In this document: positions 3-6,035 of the stretch, one piece after another
Position numbering within the stretch: position 1 is the first letter of the stretch
How the letters are laid out: each line of letters starts with the position of its first letter
From: Candidatus Omnitrophota bacterium
GTDB taxonomy: Bacteria; Omnitrophota; Koll11; Gorgyraeales; Gorgyraeaceae
NCBI GenBank assembly: GCA_018818505.1
Contig: JAHIRR010000071.1
Span: forward strand, 1 to 6,035
Reading direction: 5' to 3'
DNA length: 6,035 nucleotides
Translations under genes and position numbers: made by a program
Notes under the pieces: model-generated
Told to the model about the DNA's origin: nothing
Seen by the model: the letters and a program-made list of their open reading frames with translations, nothing else
Database searches by the model: none

Positions 3-761
3 AAAAAGATACAAGAGATCGAGAGATCTTTTGAGCAGCAAGCGCCAGAAGAGGAATCAGAACAGCAAAAGAAAAAAGATGATGGCGAGTGGACAAGGAT
101 AGAGAACAAATCAGAAGAGAAGGCAGTAAAAAGCACTCCGAAACCAAAACCAAAGAGAAAGAAAAAGGTTGTAAGAAAAATTAAAAAGACATCTGCAGAA
201 GAAGAGCCCAAGCCAAAGAAGAAAATAGTAAAAAAGCGAGGTGAGCGAGTCCCGAGCGAAGTCGAGGGAGAAAAGGTTAGAAATAAGAAAAAGACCCCTG
301 GCGATGAATGGACAAGACTCGGAGGTACTCCAGGGGAAGGGACGAAAAGATCTGATATTGATGCGGAATTGCAGGAGTCATTGAGGCTGGCAGAAGAAAG
401 GCTTCGAGAGGAAAAGCGAAAGGCGCCCGTTGCTAGCGCGAGTAAAAAGACCACTGATCTCTCAAACGCAAACGACGTTAAAAAGGCCAGGCCAGCTTCT
501 AGTGCCAGCGGCTCTTACACAAAGGCCAAGAGTTACCTGAGTAAAGGAGAATACGCAAGGGCACTTGATGAGATAAGGCTGGCAAAAAAGGATAATCCTG
601 GTGATCCAGCGCTTCTGGAGCTGGAACAGGAAGTAAAAAATAAGATGAAGGAGGAGAGGATAGGAGACCATTATAATGAAGGTGTAATGCGCTATCAGCA
701 GGACGATTTCCAAGGCGCAAGAAAAGAGTTCGAGGCAATACTCAATATTTTGCCGGAATAG
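3..761 (+). CDS. Lysine-rich TPR-repeat protein, C-terminal part (5' end outside window)
   Basis: The frame is open from the left edge to the TAG at 759-761 (252 visible residues), so an internal TTG at 369 is not a credible start. Visible residues 1-120 are low-complexity and highly charged, rich in Lys, Glu and Pro (runs such as KPKPKRKKK and PKPKKKIVKK). This suggests a disordered linker. A short motif occurs twice, DGEWTRI (81-101) and GDEWTRL (300-320). Residues about 170-203 and 219-252 fit the TPR pattern. The second unit has G, Y, F, A, F and P at the expected places (GVMRYQQDDFQGARKEFEAILNILP) and the protein stops right after it, where a capping helix would normally follow. TPRs bind proteins; no partner or function can be named, and no catalytic domain is visible. 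A palindromic repeat is read in frame at 250-269. polA starts 47 bases downstream. Confidence 0.8.
   Translation, partial: KKIQEIERSFEQQAPEEESEQQKKKDDGEWTRIENKSEEKAVKSTPKPKPKRKKKVVRKIKKTSAEEEPKPKKKIVKKRGERVPSEVEGEKVRNKKKTPGDEWTRLGGTPGEGTKRSDIDAELQESLRLAEERLREEKRKAPVASASKKTTDLSNANDVKKARPASSASGSYTKAKSYLSKGEYARALDEIRLAKKDNPGDPALLELEQEVKNKMKEERIGDHYNEGVMRYQQDDFQGARKEFEAILNILPE
250..269 (+). repeat. Short palindromic repeat, copy 1, read in frame inside the TPR protein
   Basis: The arms TCCC (250-253) and GGGA (266-269) pair around the core GAGCGAAGTCGA. The same core type recurs at 4254-4272 (minus strand) and 6008-6026 with different arms. Here it encodes V-P-S-E-V-E-G within an otherwise Lys/Glu/Pro linker, with no frame disruption. 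It is probably a dispersed element tolerated in a disordered segment; this is inference from three copies in one window. Confidence 0.6.
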
Positions 762-784
762 CATCACTAATTTTTATATATAAA
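750..784 (+). promoter_or_regulatory. Possible polA promoter
   Basis: The only AT-rich stretch between the TPR gene and polA contains the 12-bp palindrome TTTATATATAAA (773-784). It offers -10-like hexamers TATATA (775-780) or TATAAA (779-784). A weak -35-like TTGCCG (750-755) lies 19 or 23 bases upstream, which is longer than ideal. If used, transcription would start within about 20 bases of the polA ATG. Sequence resemblance only. Confidence 0.25.
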
Positions 785-808
785 TCCTTCCATTTCATAC
801 AGCAATCC

Positions 809-3481
809 ATGAAAAAGAAGAAACTATTTTTGATTGATGGAAATTCTTATTGTTACAGGGCTTTTTATGCCATAAAGGAACTCAGGAACTCAAAGGGCAT
901 GCCGACGAACGCGGTCTACGGATTTGTATTGATGCTCAGGAAGCTGCTCGCCAGCGAAAAACCAGATTATCTCGCTATAGCCTTTGATCTTAAGGGGCCG
1001 ACATTCAGGCATAAGAAATTCAAAGAGTATAAGATAACGCGAAAACCCATGCCAGATGACCTTATTTCGCAGATGCCGCTTATAAAAGAGGTAGTGTCAG
1101 CATATAATATTCCGATATTCGAAAAACAGGGCTTTGAGGCGGATGATATCCTTGCTACGATCGCCAAAAAGGTCTCAAAAAAAGACACAACAGTCTATGT
1201 AGTAACTGGTGATAAAGATATGCTGCAGTTCGTAAGCGAGAATATAAAGATATGCTCTACGCATAAGGAAGGCCTTATTTATGATAGAAAAAAGGTAGAA
1301 GAGAGATTTTCTGGCCTGGGGCCTGAGAGCATCGTGGATCTTATGGCGCTCGCAGGGGACCAGACAGATAATATACCAGGCGTGCGCGGCATAGGCGAAA
1401 AGACAGCGATTGATTTAATAAAAGAGTTTGGTGACATAGATATGCTCTACAAGAATCTTGATAAGATAAAAAGTGATTCGAAAAGAAAAACTTTAAAGGA
1501 CGGCGAAGAGAACGCCCGCATGTCAAAAGAGCTGGCTATCCTGGATAGCGCTGTACCTATAGATATAGACGAAGAATCCATGCTCTTAAGCGAACCTGAC
1601 ACAAAAAGACTTTTGGACATCTTTAAAGAACTGGAATTCAAGGCCTTTGCGAAAGAGCTTTCGTCTCAGGATTCCCATGTGCGGCGCGAAGCCAGCTACG
1701 AGACCATAACCGATAAGGCCAAATTTGATGAGCTTGTGAAAAAATTAAAGAAGCAGCGCTCGTTTGTCTTGGACTTTGAAACTACAGGCGAGGATCCTTT
1801 GCAGGCAAGGCCCCTTGGTGTTTCGTTCTGCTGGGAGCCGGGGAGGGCGTATTATGTGGCTTTAGCGAAGGAACAAGGGGTTGAGATGGCGCATGTGTTT
1901 AGCGCGCTGAAGCCGATCTTAGAGGATGAGGAGATAAAAAAGATCGGCCAGAACATCAAGTATGAAAAACTGATCCTGGAAATGCAGGGCATAGAGCTTA
2001 AGGGGATAGAATTTGACACAATGATCGCGTCATATTTATTAAATCCTTCGAAGCTTAATCATAATCTCGATGACATTGCATTCGAATACCTTGATCATAA
2101 GATGATATCCATGGCAGATCTTTTAGGCACTGGCAAAAAAAAGATAAGCATGGAGGATGTGCCTCTGGACAGGCTCTCTGAATATTCCTGTGAGGATAGC
2201 GATGTCACACTGAGGCTGAAACAAATCTTGGAAAAAGAGCTATTTAAAAAGGAGCTGGCCATCCTTTTTAAGGATATCGAAATACCTCTAATAGATGTGC
2301 TGTCGCAGATGGAAAAAAATGGCGTAAAGATAGACATTGCCTTATTAAAAAACGAATCAAAAGAGGTAGAGGAGATATTATGCACTACAGTAAAAAACAT
2401 TTATAAAATGGCCGGGGGTGAGTTTAATATAAATTCACCAAAGCAGCTAAGCCAGATTCTGTTTGAGCGGCTGGAGCTGCCGGTGGTAAAAAAGACAAAG
2501 ACAGGTTTTTCAACAGACGTTGGTGTGCTGGAGAGATTATCGAGCGTGCATCCATTGCCAAAAGAGCTTTTGCTGTATAGAGAGCTGTCAAAGTTAAAAT
2601 CAACATATATAGACGCTCTGCCTGAACTGGTGAATAAAAAAACAGGAAGGCTTCACACCTCGTTTAATCAGACAGTCACAGCCACAGGCAGGCTTTCTTC
2701 CAGCAAGCCAAACCTGCAAAATATACCTATTAAGACAGAGCAGGGCAGAAGGATCAGAAAGGCCTTTATTGGAGAAAAAGATAGATATATAGTGGCAGCG
2801 GATTACTCGCAGATCGAACTGAGGATCTTGGCGCATTTATCAGGCGACGAGGAGCTTGTAGACGCATTTAAAAGAGACTCGGATGTGCATACGCATACCG
2901 CTTCCTTGATCTTTGGGGTGGATGAAAAGGACGTTACCCGCGAGATGCGTTCAAACGCCAAGACAGTAAACTTTGGTATTGTCTATGGTATCAGCGCATT
3001 TGGCCTTTCCATAGGCCTTTCTATTGATCCTGCAAGCGCGCAACAGTTCATAGACGCCTATTTCGAGAGATATCCGCGCGTAAAGACTTATATGGAAGAA
3101 AGAATCGAAGATGCCAGAGACGCCGGTTTCGTTACAACGCTTTTTAATAGGCGCCGATATATCCCTGAGATAAATACAGGCGGCGCCAGAGAGCAGCAGC
3201 AGGCTGAGAGGATAGCGATAAACGCGCCCGTACAGGGCTCAGCAGCTGATCTTATAAAGATCGCTATGATAGACATCCACAGGGAAATAAAAAAGCAAAA
3301 ACTTTCCTCGATGATGACGCTTCAGGTGCATGACGAACTGGTGTTCGAGGTGCCGAAAAAAGAACTTGAGCTGATGAAGGATCTTATCCGCGAAAAGATG
3401 GAGCTCGCTGTAAAACTGAGCGTGCCTGTAAAGGTAACTGTAAAATACGGCAGGAACTGGCTGGAGATGGAAGAGCTTTAG
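809..3481 (+). CDS. polA: DNA polymerase I, full length with 5'-3' and 3'-5' exonuclease domains
   Basis: 890 residues (E. coli PolA: 928). The enzyme fills gaps and removes RNA primers in replication and excision repair. The 5' nuclease domain (1 to about 290) has LIDGNSYCYRAFYA, the acidic FEADD (D112, D113), TGDKD (D135, D137) and the helix-hairpin-helix region AGDQTDNIPGVRGIGEKTA. The 3'-5' exonuclease (about 300-480) keeps all motifs: D322 and E324 in DFETTG, D403 in FDTM, and Y459 with D463 in YSCED. Proofreading should therefore be active, unlike in Taq-type enzymes. The polymerase domain has TATGRLSSSKPNLQNIP, motif A DYSQIELR (D665), motif B R714-K718-F722-Y726 and motif C HDE (841-843). 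F722 matches the E. coli F762 position. The ATG at 809 gives the standard N-terminus, but no Shine-Dalgarno precedes it. The last six codons lie in a hairpin that continues past the stop. The next gene, coaE, starts 57 bases later. Confidence 0.99.
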   Translation: MKKKKLFLIDGNSYCYRAFYAIKELRNSKGMPTNAVYGFVLMLRKLLASEKPDYLAIAFDLKGPTFRHKKFKEYKITRKPMPDDLISQMPLIKEVVSAYNIPIFEKQGFEADDILATIAKKVSKKDTTVYVVTGDKDMLQFVSENIKICSTHKEGLIYDRKKVEERFSGLGPESIVDLMALAGDQTDNIPGVRGIGEKTAIDLIKEFGDIDMLYKNLDKIKSDSKRKTLKDGEENARMSKELAILDSAVPIDIDEESMLLSEPDTKRLLDIFKELEFKAFAKELSSQDSHVRREASYETITDKAKFDELVKKLKKQRSFVLDFETTGEDPLQARPLGVSFCWEPGRAYYVALAKEQGVEMAHVFSALKPILEDEEIKKIGQNIKYEKLILEMQGIELKGIEFDTMIASYLLNPSKLNHNLDDIAFEYLDHKMISMADLLGTGKKKISMEDVPLDRLSEYSCEDSDVTLRLKQILEKELFKKELAILFKDIEIPLIDVLSQMEKNGVKIDIALLKNESKEVEEILCTTVKNIYKMAGGEFNINSPKQLSQILFERLELPVVKKTKTGFSTDVGVLERLSSVHPLPKELLLYRELSKLKSTYIDALPELVNKKTGRLHTSFNQTVTATGRLSSSKPNLQNIPIKTEQGRRIRKAFIGEKDRYIVAADYSQIELRILAHLSGDEELVDAFKRDSDVHTHTASLIFGVDEKDVTREMRSNAKTVNFGIVYGISAFGLSIGLSIDPASAQQFIDAYFERYPRVKTYMEERIEDARDAGFVTTLFNRRRYIPEINTGGAREQQQAERIAINAPVQGSAADLIKIAMIDIHREIKKQKLSSMMTLQVHDELVFEVPKKELELMKDLIREKMELAVKLSVPVKVTVKYGRNWLEMEEL

Positions 3482-3493
3482 CTCTTCCATCTC
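3464..3493. repeat. Perfect 14-bp inverted repeat across the polA stop codon
   Basis: Arm 3464-3477 (GAGATGGAAGAGCT) is exactly complementary to 3480-3493, leaving two bases between them (effectively a TTTA loop). The polA TAG sits in the turn. It would be a very stable RNA hairpin. No T run follows, so it is not a classical intrinsic terminator. It could protect the 3' end of the polA message or be part of a dispersed palindrome. Confidence 0.75.
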
Positions 3494-3494
3494 T

Positions 3495-3526
3495 GCGAAG
3501 CTGTGCATGGAAGTAGCACAGCGAAG
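3495..3526. repeat. Second hairpin in the polA-coaE junction, flanked by GCGAAG
   Basis: GCTGTGC (3500-3506) pairs with GCACAGC (3516-3522) around the 9-base loop ATGGAAGTA. The unit is bracketed by direct copies of GCGAAG (3495-3500 and 3521-3526). ATGGAAG in the loop also repeats 3467-3473 and can pair with CTTCCAT at 3484-3490, so this hairpin and the one at the polA stop are mutually exclusive in part. Confidence 0.55.
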
Positions 3527-3538
3527 AAGGATGGAGGA
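3527..3538 (+). promoter_or_regulatory. Ribosome binding site region of coaE
   Basis: AAGGA (3527-3531) lies 7 bases before the ATG at 3539 and is the better-spaced Shine-Dalgarno. A stronger GGAGG (3533-3537) ends only one base before the ATG, too close for normal use. The site decides the start: it excludes the GTG at 3503, which would add 12 residues encoded by the hairpin. Confidence 0.55.
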
Positions 3539-4105
3539 ATGTTAATCGGTGTAACTGGAAACTATGGCAGCGGCAAGACGACAGTCGCAGGGATGTTTGC
3601 GGGGCGCGGCGCCTTTGTGATCGACGCGGACAAGGTCTGCCATTCTTTGATGGGGCGTTCCATGCCAGTGTACAAAAAGATCATCAAGCATTTTGGCGCG
3701 GGCATCCTTGATGCGAGAAAGAATATCGACAGGCGCGCCCTCGCAGAGATCGTGTTTAGCAATAGGTCAAAATTGGACCTATTGAATAGATCAGTGCATC
3801 CATCCGCGATAAAAGAAATAAATAAAATAATCCGAAGAAACAAAAAAAGAAAGATCATTATCGTGGACGCCGCGCTTTTAATAGAAAGTGATTTTTATAA
3901 AAACATGGATAAGATAATCGTTGTCAAGGCTGTCTCAAGAAAAAAGGATAGCTTACGGAGAATAAGGATGCAGGCGAGCTTTAAAAAAAAGCTTAGGCTT
4001 GCAGACTTTACCATAGATAATAGCGGATCGAAGAAAAAAACACTATCCCAGGTCAGAAGGATCTGGAAACAATTAAGTAAGGCCATGAGTTGCGAAAATT
4101 TTTAA
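3539..4105 (+). CDS. coaE: Dephospho-CoA kinase with shortened lid region
   Basis: 188 residues. CoaE phosphorylates the ribose 3'-OH of dephospho-CoA with ATP, the last step of coenzyme A synthesis, in the cytoplasm. Evidence: the N-terminal P-loop GNYGSGKTT (7-15), VIDADKVCH (27-35), the RRALAEIVFSN block (65-75), LLNRSVHP (81-88), VDAALLIES (109-117, where families usually have PLL rather than ALL) and LADFTIDNSGS (154-164). Between IIVVK (126-130) and LADF the family normally carries a lid of the form R-x-x-R-D/L-G-(I/L)-(S/T)-x-E-E-x-x-x-R-I. Here only SLRRIRMQASFKKKLR remains. By hand alignment to E. coli CoaE about 13 residues are missing, with the frame kept. The start at 3539 gives the canonical MLIGVTG opening. 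The last eight codons lie in the left arm of a hairpin. rho follows after 196 bases. Confidence 0.95.
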   Translation: MLIGVTGNYGSGKTTVAGMFAGRGAFVIDADKVCHSLMGRSMPVYKKIIKHFGAGILDARKNIDRRALAEIVFSNRSKLDLLNRSVHPSAIKEINKIIRRNKKRKIIIVDAALLIESDFYKNMDKIIVVKAVSRKKDSLRRIRMQASFKKKLRLADFTIDNSGSKKKTLSQVRRIWKQLSKAMSCENF

Positions 4106-4125
4106 TTTTTGCAACTCATTTGGCC
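4081..4125. repeat. Long stem-loop spanning the coaE stop codon
   Basis: ATGAGTTGCGAAAA (4085-4098) pairs with TTTTTGCAACTCAT (4106-4119) over 14 positions, with one G-U, around a T/A-rich loop. GGCC (4081-4084) and GGCC (4122-4125) extend the stem after a small bulge. The coaE TAA (4103-4105) is in the loop. No T tract follows the stem, so termination activity is doubtful. The arm encodes the coaE C-terminus KAMSCENF, which may have been supplied by the element. Confidence 0.7.
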
Positions 4126-4241
4126 GAACTTACCCCGCCCTTTTGTTTCAGGCGTTTGGTTTTACAGTAAGCGCTACGCACTGTAAATACTGATGTATAC
4201 AAAAAGTGAAACGCACTAAACAAAAGGGCGGGGTCAATTCG
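4125..4241. repeat. 117-base imperfect inverted-repeat element in the rho leader
   Basis: The 17-bp arm 4132-4148 (ACCCCGCCCTTTTGTTT) is exactly complementary to 4218-4234. The pairing continues inward after a 3x3 mismatch with GCGTTT/AAACGC (4152-4157 with 4209-4214) and outward with CGAA/TTCG (4125-4128 with 4238-4241). Its centre contains a separate hairpin (4161-4187) and the 8-bp palindrome TGTATACA (4194-4201). No ORF on either strand looks real here. The architecture resembles a MITE-like or REP-like element, or a large structured leader. No clean target-site duplication is visible. Confidence 0.7.
4161..4187. repeat. Hairpin nested inside the 117-base element
   Basis: TTTACAGT (4161-4168) pairs perfectly with ACTGTAAA (4180-4187). 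Inside it GCG (4171-4173) pairs with CGC (4177-4179) around CTA, with a two-base AA bulge on the left. Three of its T residues could alternatively pair with the A run at 4203-4205 of the larger element. Confidence 0.6.
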
Positions 4242-4284
4242 CACAGCAACTTACCTCGCACTTCGTGCTCCGTAAGTTGCGTGC
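4241..4284. repeat. Stem-loop just upstream of the rho RBS (palindromic repeat, copy 2)
   Basis: GCAC (4241-4244) pairs with GTGC (4281-4284), GCAACTTAC (4246-4254) with GTAAGTTGC (4272-4280), and GCAC (4258-4261) with GTGC (4265-4268). There is a one-base bulge, a 3x3 internal loop and the terminal loop TTC. Read on the minus strand the inner part is CGGAGCACGAAGTGCGAGG, the same core as at 250-269 with AC and G added symmetrically. It ends four bases before the rho Shine-Dalgarno, so it may affect rho translation or be a tolerated dispersed repeat. Confidence 0.65.
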
Positions 4285-4288
4285 TCAT

Positions 4289-4304
4289 GGAGGAGCGTGA
4301 CATG
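4289..4304 (+). promoter_or_regulatory. Shine-Dalgarno and start codon of rho
   Basis: GGAGG (4289-4293) stands 8 bases before the ATG at 4302. An in-frame ATG at 4287 overlaps this site and an in-frame GTG at 4206 lies inside the inverted repeat. Both are rejected because only 4302 is correctly spaced. GCTC (4283-4286) can pair with GAGC (4293-4296), which would present most of the Shine-Dalgarno in a small loop. Confidence 0.85.
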
Positions 4305-5567
4305 ACTGTAAAAGAAAAGCTGGATATTGAAAAACTTAAAGCCTTGAAAGTATCAGAGCTGAACAAAGTAGCCGCTGATCTGAAGGTCAACGGTGTGAGC
4401 GGGCTGAGAAAACAGGAACTGATATTTAAGGTGCTTCAGGCGCAGACAGAAAAGGCAGGCCTCATATTTGGCGAGGGCGTGCTGGAGACACTTCCTGATG
4501 GATTTGGGTTTTTGCGCTCTGTCAATTATAGTTATCTTCCAGGGCCGGATGACATATATGTCTCACCTTCGCAGATTAAAAAATTTAGCATGCGTACAGG
4601 CGATACTGTGAGCGGACAGATAAGGCCGCCAAAGGAGGGCGAAAAATATTTTGCGCTCCTTAAGGTGGAGGCGATAAATTTTGAAGGGCCTGAGGCCTCA
4701 AAGGATAAGATATTATTCGATAATCTTACGCCTCTTTATCCGAACGAGAGATTTATATTGGAAACAAAAAAGGATGAGCTTTCCACGCGGGTAATGGATC
4801 TATTGACACCCATAGGAAAGGGCCAGAGAGGTATGATAGTCGCCCCGCCTTACAGTGGAAAAACCATTATTATGCAGAAGGTAGCGAACAGCATAGCGAC
4901 AAACTGTCCTGACGCCTCTATCATAGTGCTTCTTATAGACGAGAGGCCTGAGGAGGTTACAGATATGCAGCGCTCAGTAAAGGGCGAGGTAGTAAGTTCG
5001 ACATTTGACGAGCCTGCTGAGAGGCACGTGCAGGTGGCAGAGATGGCGCTTGCAAAGGCAAGGCGGCTTGTCGAACACAAGAGGGATGTTGTGATACTTC
5101 TCGATAGCATAACGCGCTTGGCAAGGGCGTATAACACAGTTGTGCCGCACTCCGGAAAGATACTTTCAGGAGGCGTGGATTCAAAGGCGCTTCATAAACC
5201 AAAAAGGTTCTTTGGTTCGGCCAGGAACATAGAGGAGGGCGGGAGCCTTACTATCATAGCCACTGCCTTAGTTGACACAGGCAGCAGGATGGACGAGGTC
5301 ATATTCGAGGAATTTAAAGGAACAGGAAACATGGAGCTGCAGCTGGACAGAAGCCTATTCCAGAGAAGGGTCTACCCGGCGATCGACATTAAAAGATCAA
5401 ACACAAGAAAAGAAGAGCTTTTGATGAGCGAGAAAGAGCTGCAGAGAGTGTGGGTATTAAGAAAGGTCCTGAATGAGCTAAACAGCGTTGAGGCAATGGA
5501 GCTTCTTCTCGGTAAGCTTCAAAGGACAAAGTCAAACGAGGAATTCTTAGAAAGCATGAACCAGTAA
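4302..5567 (+). CDS. rho: Transcription termination factor Rho
   Basis: 421 residues (E. coli Rho: 419). Rho is a hexameric RNA-dependent ATPase that loads on unstructured C-rich RNA and dislodges RNA polymerase. In order: Rho N-terminal helical domain (about 11-47); cold-shock-type primary RNA site (about 57-127) with the RNP motif DGFGFLRS; Walker A APPYSGKT (181-188, K187); catalytic region [15 protein letters not shown] (E214); Walker [17 protein letters not shown] (D268); Q-loop [11 protein letters not shown] (281-291); R-loop DTGSRMDEV (325-333); and the arginine-finger segment NTRKEEL (R369). Walker A has Y184-S185 where E. coli has K-A. There is no N-terminal insertion. The gene has the longest and most structured leader in the window, compatible with autoregulation by attenuation as known for E. 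coli rho, though this is not shown here. The lack of intrinsic terminators around it fits reliance on Rho. Confidence 0.99.
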
Positions 5568-5584
5568 ACAATACAGTAAAATGA

Positions 5585-5691
5585 CACGAAATAACCAAGA
5601 TACAAGAAACAATAACCAAACAATAACCAATAATCAAATGCCAATGACCAAACCCGCGTTACAGAGATGTTTGGTTATTGATTATTTCGTG
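5585..5691. repeat. ATAACCAA repeat array forming an imperfect inverted repeat between rho and rpmE
   Basis: ATAACCAA occurs exactly at 5591-5598, 5612-5619 and 5623-5630. Variants lie at 5630-5637 (ATAATCAA) and 5644-5651 (ATGACCAA). The reverse complement TTGGTTAT is at 5671-5678 and TTGATTAT at 5678-5685. CACGAAATAA (5585-5594) pairs with 5682-5691, and AATAACCAAACA (5611-5622) pairs with 5668-5679. There is no coding signal or T-run terminator. The irregular spacing (21, 11, 7 and 14 bases) argues against a simple slippage repeat. Confidence 0.65.
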
Positions 5692-5704
5692 CATAAAACT
5701 AAAT

Positions 5705-5717
5705 GGAGGTTACAATG
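5705..5717 (+). promoter_or_regulatory. Shine-Dalgarno and start codon of rpmE
   Basis: GGAGG (5705-5709) is 5 bases before the ATG at 5715. The in-frame ATG at 5703 overlaps the site and has no upstream Shine-Dalgarno of its own, so the start is 5715, giving the family-typical opening MKEKIHPNY. Confidence 0.85.
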
Positions 5718-5915
5718 AAGGAAAAGATACACCCTAATTACAAGGAAGCAACGATTATATGCGCGTGCGGCGAGGTTATTCATACGCGCTCTACAAAGCA
5801 GAATATCCGCGTAGAGATATGTTCTAAGTGCCACCCATTCTTCACGGGCAAACAAAAATTCGTTGATTCTGCCGGCAGAGTCGAAAAGTTCTTGAAGAAA
5901 TACAAGAAGAAATAA
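5715..5915 (+). CDS. rpmE: 50S ribosomal protein L31, zinc-binding (C+) form
   Basis: 66 residues, normal for bacterial L31, which sits at the large-subunit central protuberance and helps bridge it to the small subunit. The opening MKEKIHPNY and the block [21 protein letters not shown] are diagnostic. Four cysteines form the zinc site: C16 and C18 (CAC) with C36 and C39 (CSKC). It is therefore the zinc-containing type rather than the cysteine-free paralogue that Zur represses under zinc limitation in some bacteria. It follows rho after 147 bases and in many genomes is followed by prfA and prmC. The C-terminus is a basic tail, KKYKKK. Confidence 0.97.
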
Positions 5916-5938
5916 TTAATTGTATGGAATTTCAATAA

Positions 5939-6008
5939 AACGCGAATATACGCAAATCCAACGCGAATATTCGCGAATATATGCGTTTGATTCGCGATAA
6001 TTCGCGTT
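5939..6008. repeat. CGCGAAT palindrome cluster downstream of rpmE
   Basis: CGCGAAT occurs at 5941-5947, 5962-5968 and 5972-5978, and its reverse complement ATTCGCG at 5969-5975, 5990-5996 and 6000-6006. CGCGAATATTCGCG (5962-5975) is a perfect 14-bp palindrome. The ends AACGCGAAT (5939-5947) and ATTCGCGTT (6000-6008) pair, so most of the 70 bases can fold into one imperfect hairpin. No T run follows. It could end or process the rpmE message, bind a protein at repeated sites, or be a dispersed element. Confidence 0.7.
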
Positions 6009-6026
6009 GCCGAACGCAGTGAGGCA
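6008..6026 (+). repeat. Short palindromic repeat, copy 3, overlapping an RBS
   Basis: TGCC (6008-6011) pairs with GGCA (6023-6026) around GAACGCAGTGA. Compared with copy 1 at 250-269, the core is clearly related (GAGCGAAGTCGA). The second stem base has changed from C to G with the matching change from G to C on the other arm, so pairing is kept. Confidence 0.55.
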
Positions 6027-6035
6027 TAATTTATG
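6021..6035 (+). promoter_or_regulatory. RBS and start codon of the next gene, possibly prfA
   Basis: GAGG (6021-6024) lies 8 bases before an ATG that occupies the last three bases of the window. Only the start codon is visible, so the product cannot be read. Peptide chain release factor 1 (prfA) is the usual gene after rpmE in this order; that identity is inference from gene order alone. Confidence 0.45.

Follow-up and report, generated by a model that had tools for sequence, protein, structure and literature searches.

Palindromic hairpin elements with a GA-flanked tip, probably mobile, in Omnitrophota genomes

We propose, with a probability of roughly 0.8, that three short hairpins in a 6,035-nt stretch of Omnitrophota DNA (the whole of which we call the window) belong to a set of real, recently active palindromic mobile elements, non-autonomous and REPIN- or MITE-like in build. 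Their constant part would be the hairpin tip, in which two stems are joined by facing GA/GA and capped by a short loop made up mostly of purines, and their arms would vary between copies and sub-families yet stay complementary. The elements would move in a single-stranded state, reached by folding on the lagging strand or by extrusion. Most insertions would lie at the ends of genes or in the gaps between them (beside TAA for type B); those within ORFs would be confined to places where the reading frame is kept, and those into the loops of other hairpins would give rise to nested palindromes.

Tip types in the window and in related genomes

All genes of the window are on the + strand and comprise a TPR-containing ORF (3-761), polA (809-3481), coaE (from 3539), rho (from 4302) and rpmE (from 5715). 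The closest relatives of its PolA are found in Omnitrophota metagenome assemblies (77% identity for locus L001), and the genome-wide counts reported here were obtained from other genomes, not from the window's own. The main set (15 genomes, G001-G015) consists of 14 Omnitrophota genomes picked by PolA and of G015, which was included on the basis of a related hairpin in its PolA locus. A phylum set of 285 genomes shares 12 with the main set, and 13 comparison genomes, 11 of them from other groups, were searched as well.

A sequence-only reading of the window had described one repeat family of three copies, and all three hairpin sequences were confirmed at the positions it had given. The family is real, but its members are of different sub-families, and the hairpin of copy 2 proved to form an end of a composite of 218 bp (4074-4291). 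The features, with the evidence for each in brackets, are as follows.

250..269, + strand: copy 1, type-A hairpin TCCC-GAGCGAAGTCGA-GGGA (sequence, architecture match and core enrichment in relatives)
4074..4291, no strand assigned: composite palindromic element, REPIN-like, located between coaE and rho and made of two inverted type-B hairpins with a palindrome in the middle (model R1 at both ends, fold, relatives)
4074..4132, + strand: type-B end hairpin TAAGT-AA-GGCC-ATGAGTTGC...GCAACTCAT-TT-GGCC-GA-ACTTA (R1 E 3e-8)
4133..4233, no strand assigned: palindrome CCCCGCCCTTTTGTTT...AAACAAAAGGGCGGGG at the centre of the composite, itself enclosing a smaller hairpin (inverted repeat and fold)
4234..4291, - strand: type-B end hairpin with copy 2 at 4246-4280 (R1 E 2.5e-12; in the training set)
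6008..6026, + strand: copy 3, TGCC-GAACGCAGTGA-GGCA, between rpmE and the window end (core enriched; stem and fold weak)

Copies 1 and 3 are the exact matches in the window to an architecture of a stem of at least 4 bp, GA..GA, a short inner stem and a GNA loop, and copy 2, on the minus strand, fits this architecture except for one G.G mismatch beside the GA. In 300 dinucleotide shuffles of the window the same architecture occurred at a mean of 0.02 sites (maximum 1), a figure that is post hoc because the architecture was derived from the copies themselves; the weight therefore rests on independent genomes. A stricter double-stem scan of the window gave no match. The strict architecture was found in 0 of 12 Omnitrophota polA neighbourhoods (L001-L012), and among 34 polA-match loci it had three matches, two of which are A-rich and chance-like. 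An Rfam scan of the window returned a single match at E<=1, located inside rho and scoring 24.7 bits where the cut-off is 100.

Copy 1 lies in frame (residues ...RVPSEVEGE...) within a Lys/Glu-rich linker of the TPR-containing ORF, which carries a TPR_2 domain at its C-terminus. This ORF had tblastn matches in 11 of the 14 relatives searched, strongest at the C-terminus. The linker is variable and poorly conserved, and three of the six relatives with alignments shown have a gap near copy 1, a pattern that fits an in-frame insertion of copy 1 without proving it. Copy 1 has the 12-nt core GAGCGAAGTCGA, which is present in 14 of the 15 genomes of the main set, with 109 matches versus 3 for the reversed pattern. 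Across the 285 phylum genomes it has 535 matches versus 44 reversed, in 144 genomes and with up to 39 per genome, and the 13 comparison genomes, mostly from other groups, hold one site. A complementary stem of at least 4 bp adjoins the core in 38 of 59 copies, compared with ~12.4 when the right arms are dealt randomly. Core counts above those of a control, and self-complementary flanks in further copies, were the two points on which the sequence-only reading had offered itself for refutation in advance, and it withstood both attempts.

The same reading had held the stems to be self-complementary and freely changing, of which the former stood and the latter did not. The inner left arm of type A (four bases) is of 15 kinds in the 59 copies, with TCCC in 25 and CTTC in 10; since the arm kinds are few and repeated, type-A stems covary by sub-family and not freely. 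In the type-A alignment 71.3% of cells are paired versus 62.6% after shuffling, and 87 cells show double changes versus 54.0; neither the pairs with a double change (9 vs 8.6 shuffled) nor the further pair types (29 vs 28.1) were above the shuffles. Two ORF insertions in G006 (L102:6700-6860 and 9900-10050; net +30 nt each) have in common a stretch of AACGACG units ahead of a TCCC-type core, which makes this stretch a further repeat travelling with type A.

Copy 2 is contained in the hairpin at 4234-4291, which reads GCAC-GCAAC-TTACG-GA-GCAC-GAA-GTGC-GA-GGTAA-GTTGC-T-GTGC on the minus strand. The opposite end of the composite (4074-4132) is likewise recognised by R1, a covariance model built from type-B hairpins; it is absent from the training set of the model, all 23 model pairs in it are standard, and the coaE ORF ends within it (4105). 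At the site of the composite, the matches to coaE and rho are spaced by 1-21 nt in 10 of the 10 relatives matched on both sides (L002, L011, L012 and L034, which had no coaE match among the matches listed, were left out) and by roughly 220-240 nt in the window. In DNA folding the composite has a z of -11.24, its strand forming three hairpins, and copy 2 has a z of -4.70.

The type-B pattern TTAYGGAG-N5-11-CGASRTAA, which leaves the outer arms and the tip stem unconstrained, has 54 matches versus 2 for its control in the 15 genomes and occurs in nine of them, where the sole G008 match and one of the two G003 matches are without complementary outer arms. Alignment of 22 copies with their flanks gave a long hairpin in which GA/GA occurs twice (consensus TAAGT-GA-GGAC-ATGAC-TTACG-GA-GNNN-NNA-NNNC-GA-CGTAA-GTCAT-(2 nt)-GTCC-GA-ACTTA). 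With three gapped rows kept at the cost of some pairs, 94.6% of cells are paired, versus 80.1% after shuffling and 23-37% with partners slid. Double changes are found in 15 of the 23 pairs, in 68 cells versus 17.8 shuffled, and span both inner and outer stems, so that the conserved tip with covarying arms noticed in the window is borne out by type B.

R1 has matches in at least 20 of the 23 genomes searched, with at least 65 copies in the richest; eight of these genomes had been picked as rich in the type-A core, and the counts are lower bounds, as in 22 of the 23 genomes 150 of a larger number of candidates were scored. It has 0 matches in the 13 comparison genomes mostly from other groups, an empty result that is weak evidence. 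The plan of the composite (left hairpin, central palindrome that varies between copies, right hairpin) recurs in several relatives, terminal inverted repeats are present in the composites of the window and of relatives, and six further inverted type-B pairs, with 48-95 nt between them, were found in the 34 loci searched.

Copy 3 probably belongs to the same hairpin-tip vocabulary, as a single tip of a third type. Its exact 12-mer, GAACGCAGTGAG, occurs at six sites in 4 of the 15 genomes. A looser core, GCGAACGNAGTGAGC, with one mismatch allowed, has 42 matches versus 5 for the control, 16 of them exact, in 13 of the 15 genomes. Of the core GAACGNAGTGA there are 30 distinct copies in the loci examined; six have an adjoining stem of at least 4 bp versus 2.1 shuffled, and in at least 8, judged by eye, the core is itself the loop of an outer GAG...CGA tip, for example TATTCTTC-GAGC-[GAACGAAGTGA]-GTCGA-GAAGAAT. 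This nesting of copy-3 cores in other tips places them in the vocabulary of tips used by the other types. The membership of copy 3 is judged probable on the looser core and its stems: the core is enriched, but the stems are weak, that of the window copy being just 4 bp long on a strand that prefers a GCGTT/AACGC hairpin instead. The stretch just before copy 3, downstream of rpmE (5939-6008), is dense in CGCGAATAT palindromes and direct repeats, and positions 5935-6030 have a fold z of -3.77.

Presence, absence and landing sites in close genomes

Two genomes of the main set, G006 and G013, are ~91% identical over the polA region. We compared 20 contig pieces of G006 (282 kb) with 60 pieces of G013 (836 kb), and as 18 of the 20 G006 pieces were chosen for containing a core, the densities are biased. 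Hairpins of the form stem-GAGY-loop-RTCGA-stem number 105 in G006 (1.3 shuffled) and 27 in G013 (2.0 shuffled), and the stricter double-stem scan found 29 (0 shuffled) and 8 (3 shuffled), respectively. A loop of 27-29 nt is present in 55 of the 105 G006 hairpins. Many of these form a second composite, in 19 distinct copies, with ends GTTCTCGACT and AGTCGAGAAG flanking an AATATT spacer. GTAG, which precedes 3 of 19 composites with loops of the 28-nt type, is not a constant tag.

Among 67 G006 clusters with 450-bp flanks, 36 have a counterpart in the fetched G013 DNA and 31 have none. Of the 36 comparable clusters, 34 are longer in G006 by 30-273 nt (threshold >=20 nt) and two are about equal in length. 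At 24 of the longer clusters no more than 24 nt remain at the G013 spot; the less clean ten include four differences within a single through alignment and six places with 34-244 nt of other sequence in G013. The reverse comparison, of G013 clusters against G006, gave five cases, with one place represented twice, of which one is longer, three are equal and one is shorter. At two sites the insert is lacking in further genomes, which argues for gain in G006 rather than loss in G013, with third-genome support at these two sites only: nested cores that make up an in-frame stretch of 123 nt in the coaE gene of G006 are absent from 6 of 6 other aligned genomes, and a composite at L006:11238 is absent from both G005 and G013. 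Thus, in a phylum that is uncultured, one genome has gained (or kept) dozens of insertions relative to a ~91%-identical genome in the part compared, including the one inside coaE in which the frame is kept.

By a simple ORF call, under which 89% of the DNA is coding, 27 of the 70 clusters of G006 fall between ORFs, 15 are contained in one and 28 run over the end of one. Because the ORFs of G006 favour frame-keeping inserts, the frame was examined on the unoccupied ORFs of G013: all eight length differences within these ORFs are multiples of 3, compared with 9 of 26 at other sites, and the result of 8/8 is the same with the ORFs of either genome. The chance of such an outcome is (1/3)^8 = 1.5e-4, to be read with two of the eight sites sharing much sequence. 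There is no excess of clusters between convergent genes (51 co-directional, 0 convergent and 2 divergent versus a background of 207/9/8).

TAA stands directly before 22 of the 24 type-B matches listed, some of which are entered in both orientations, and a TAA or TA target is therefore likely for type B. In the cleanest case (L112:7053-7281) TAA is present once in G013 and at both ends of the insert in G006; other junctions are not clean. Hairpins were also found in the loops of other hairpins, as the sequence-only reading had anticipated in suggesting an element that inserts into palindromes: GTTC-GAGC...GTCGA-GAAC hairpins have cores in their enlarged loops, and both type-A and type-B loops contain GGGCGGG palindromes.

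Further repeats were observed at gene junctions. In the rho-rpmE gap of the window (5585-5691), AATAACCAA repeats face TTGGTTATT; the flanking matches are separated by ~147 nt in the window, by 0-77 nt in relatives such as L001, L002, L005, L008 and L009, and by 211 nt in L006. A GTTCTCGAC...CGCTCGAAC element in G008 (L008, from 12649) starts directly after the polA stop codon. The window has a perfect 14-bp palindrome across the stop codon of its own polA (3464-3493), whose left arm is coding and alike in several relatives and whose right arm is an inverted copy absent from the 10 relatives shown.

Competing explanations and a candidate mover

The hairpins could instead be elements of RNA, selected for a role in the mRNA such as processing, stability, termination or a protein-binding loop. 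A conserved loop with compensatory stem changes is in keeping with such a role, as is the excess of G.T (14) over A.C (5) among the type-A mismatches at the four inner pairs. Selection on one strand of RNA should tolerate G.U over A.C; in type B, however, G.T is no commoner than A.C (7 and 7), which points to DNA structure or jointly renewed arms rather than RNA, and one-sided changes are rare (5 versus 68 double changes). Selection on RNA, one of the possibilities raised by the sequence-only reading, was accordingly not upheld for type B. Most clusters do lie between co-directional genes, but with no clear excess over background, and the 15 of 70 clusters inside ORFs and the 34 of 36 that differ in length between ~91%-identical genomes speak against a function in the transcript. 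Overall, we consider this explanation unlikely.

We give a similarly low probability to the building of palindromes, that is, to the insertion of the tip only, with arms made from the target by fold-back copying or template switching. This would account for arms that change in concert with few intermediates, and for the palindrome across the polA stop codon, with its coding left arm and a right arm absent from the 10 relatives shown. Nevertheless, at the inspected empty sites both arms are missing from the unoccupied allele and arrived with the insert, which does not bear out the earlier suggestion of an element that builds palindromes, and the arms are of few repeated kinds, although concerted change could still follow insertion. 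Less probable than either is that unrelated short palindromes share a purine-rich loop by coincidence. Copy 1 alone, with standard DNA energies, folds no better than shuffles (z 0.10), and the stems of copy 3 are modestly above expectation (6/30 vs 2.1) on a window strand that prefers another fold; yet all three core types are far above their reversed-pattern controls, and a model not trained on the second end of the copy-2 composite nonetheless picked it up. For copies 1 and 2, chance is ruled out by the core counts against controls.

If the hairpins are non-autonomous mobile elements, as we prefer to think, their GA-marked tip would be recognised by an enzyme acting in trans, for which a RAYT-like Y1 (HUH) transposase is the first candidate. 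Y1 transposase genes (PF01797) are present in 15 of the 15 comparison genomes, most of them RAYT-like in length and by a weak match. That such a gene flanks the elements as a rule was not supported, since type-B hairpins occur in 1 of 50 Y1 loci and the exact type-A core in 1 of 50; Y1 as such remains a candidate. When these 50 loci were scanned for GAGY...RTCGA hairpins, the strict architecture and the type-A core, five had matches. In L219, the one locus with an exact type-A core, this core is ~1.3 kb from the gene; L093 holds a related hairpin and L087 a chance-like match. Y1 proteins, readable in 41 of the 50 loci (none in nine), form several clusters, none of which obviously matches the type-B-rich genomes.

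The other two of the five loci (L092, G009:C76; L225, G005:C3) each carry a copy-3-type hairpin within the ORF of a Y1 gene, the two genes being related; the hairpin, a perfect one, is there part of the coding sequence (DDAKLT-FASLL). G009 has two more copy-3-type hairpins within 2 kb (C76; L209, L092), one of them just upstream of the Y1 gene. The copy-3-type hairpin may have been copied out of the transposase gene or kept within it, and its proximity to Y1 in G009 is the sole hint of a RAYT partner, for the copy-3 type only. A Y1 gene between end hairpins, on the plan of IS200/IS605, was not found in the Y1 loci and DNA examined, and no wide left-right pair that could be a cargo-carrying parent was found in 282 kb of G006, nor one of type B in the other loci examined. 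Judging from the kind of element, we put the chance that a Y1 enzyme acting in trans is the mover at slightly below even.

We are more doubtful of a wider possibility, a phylum-wide DNA hairpin system in which the single-stranded tip (GA/GA and a short stable loop) is recognised and the stem is not. The arms would be kept complementary by a DNA process, for example copying within the hairpin; new elements would enter old loops so that palindromes grow by nesting, and the mover would be of an enzyme kind not yet tied to such targets. A conserved tip with changing arms separates the part that an enzyme could read from mere structure, two things usually mixed in REP-like repeats, and if a mover is found, it could prove to be a natural system for single-strand insertion into hairpin loops.

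Comparison with known systems

Bacterial MITEs are non-autonomous elements with inverted ends that are moved in trans. The Omnitrophota composites share the inverted ends but differ in that no parent insertion sequence was found in the DNA examined and that a pattern that may be a TAA duplication is clean at one site only. The Rickettsia palindromic elements (RPE) are palindromic, lineage-specific and located in frame within protein genes. Compared by description only, the Omnitrophota elements are alike in being palindromic, lineage-specific and frame-keeping in ORFs, whereas they belong to another phylum and form larger nested composites.

Such elements in Omnitrophota were not found described in a limited literature search, the scope of which excluded supplements and subscription papers. 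Matches to the core and its variants, searched as letters in text outside figures and supplements, were unrelated by title and abstract start, and among the matches listed for Omnitrophota and repeats, nothing on such elements was seen by title and abstract start. The main text of a survey of the phylum (PMC10066038) has no palindrom, repeat, transposase, mobile element or insertion sequence.

Closest in build are REPs and REPINs, described as short imperfect palindromes in many copies and inverted pairs, mostly at gene ends (PMC3733652, PMC3116915), traits that the Omnitrophota elements share, as they share the presence of Y1 genes (15 of 15 genomes tested in the Omnitrophota set). In known REP/RAYT systems, recognition is reported to rely on mismatches and loops in the single strand once it has folded (PMC8266576). 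In contrast to REPs, the Omnitrophota elements are without a constant GTAG (or CGTC) tag (GTAG in 3 of 19), conserve the GA-flanked tip rather than the stem, are nested as hairpins in hairpins and have few adjoining Y1 genes.

Hairpin elements have also spread in organelles. Those of sponge mitochondria invade intergenic and some coding regions, as the Omnitrophota elements do, but have conserved stems and variable loops, the reverse of the case described here (PMC2800124). The palindromes of Volvox organelles have stems of 4-37 nt and short loops that are often of one sequence, occur as palindromes within palindromes and proliferate between genes by a mechanism that the authors left open (PMC2670323). 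The likeness to the Omnitrophota elements lies in the complementary stems, short recurring loops, nesting and intergenic spread; the difference is that these are organelle genomes, that the loops are TAAA/TTTA and that no GA/GA tip is mentioned in the text examined (PMC2670323). Even without a mover, close pairs of Omnitrophota genomes make the spread of palindromes in bacteria and organelles directly testable.
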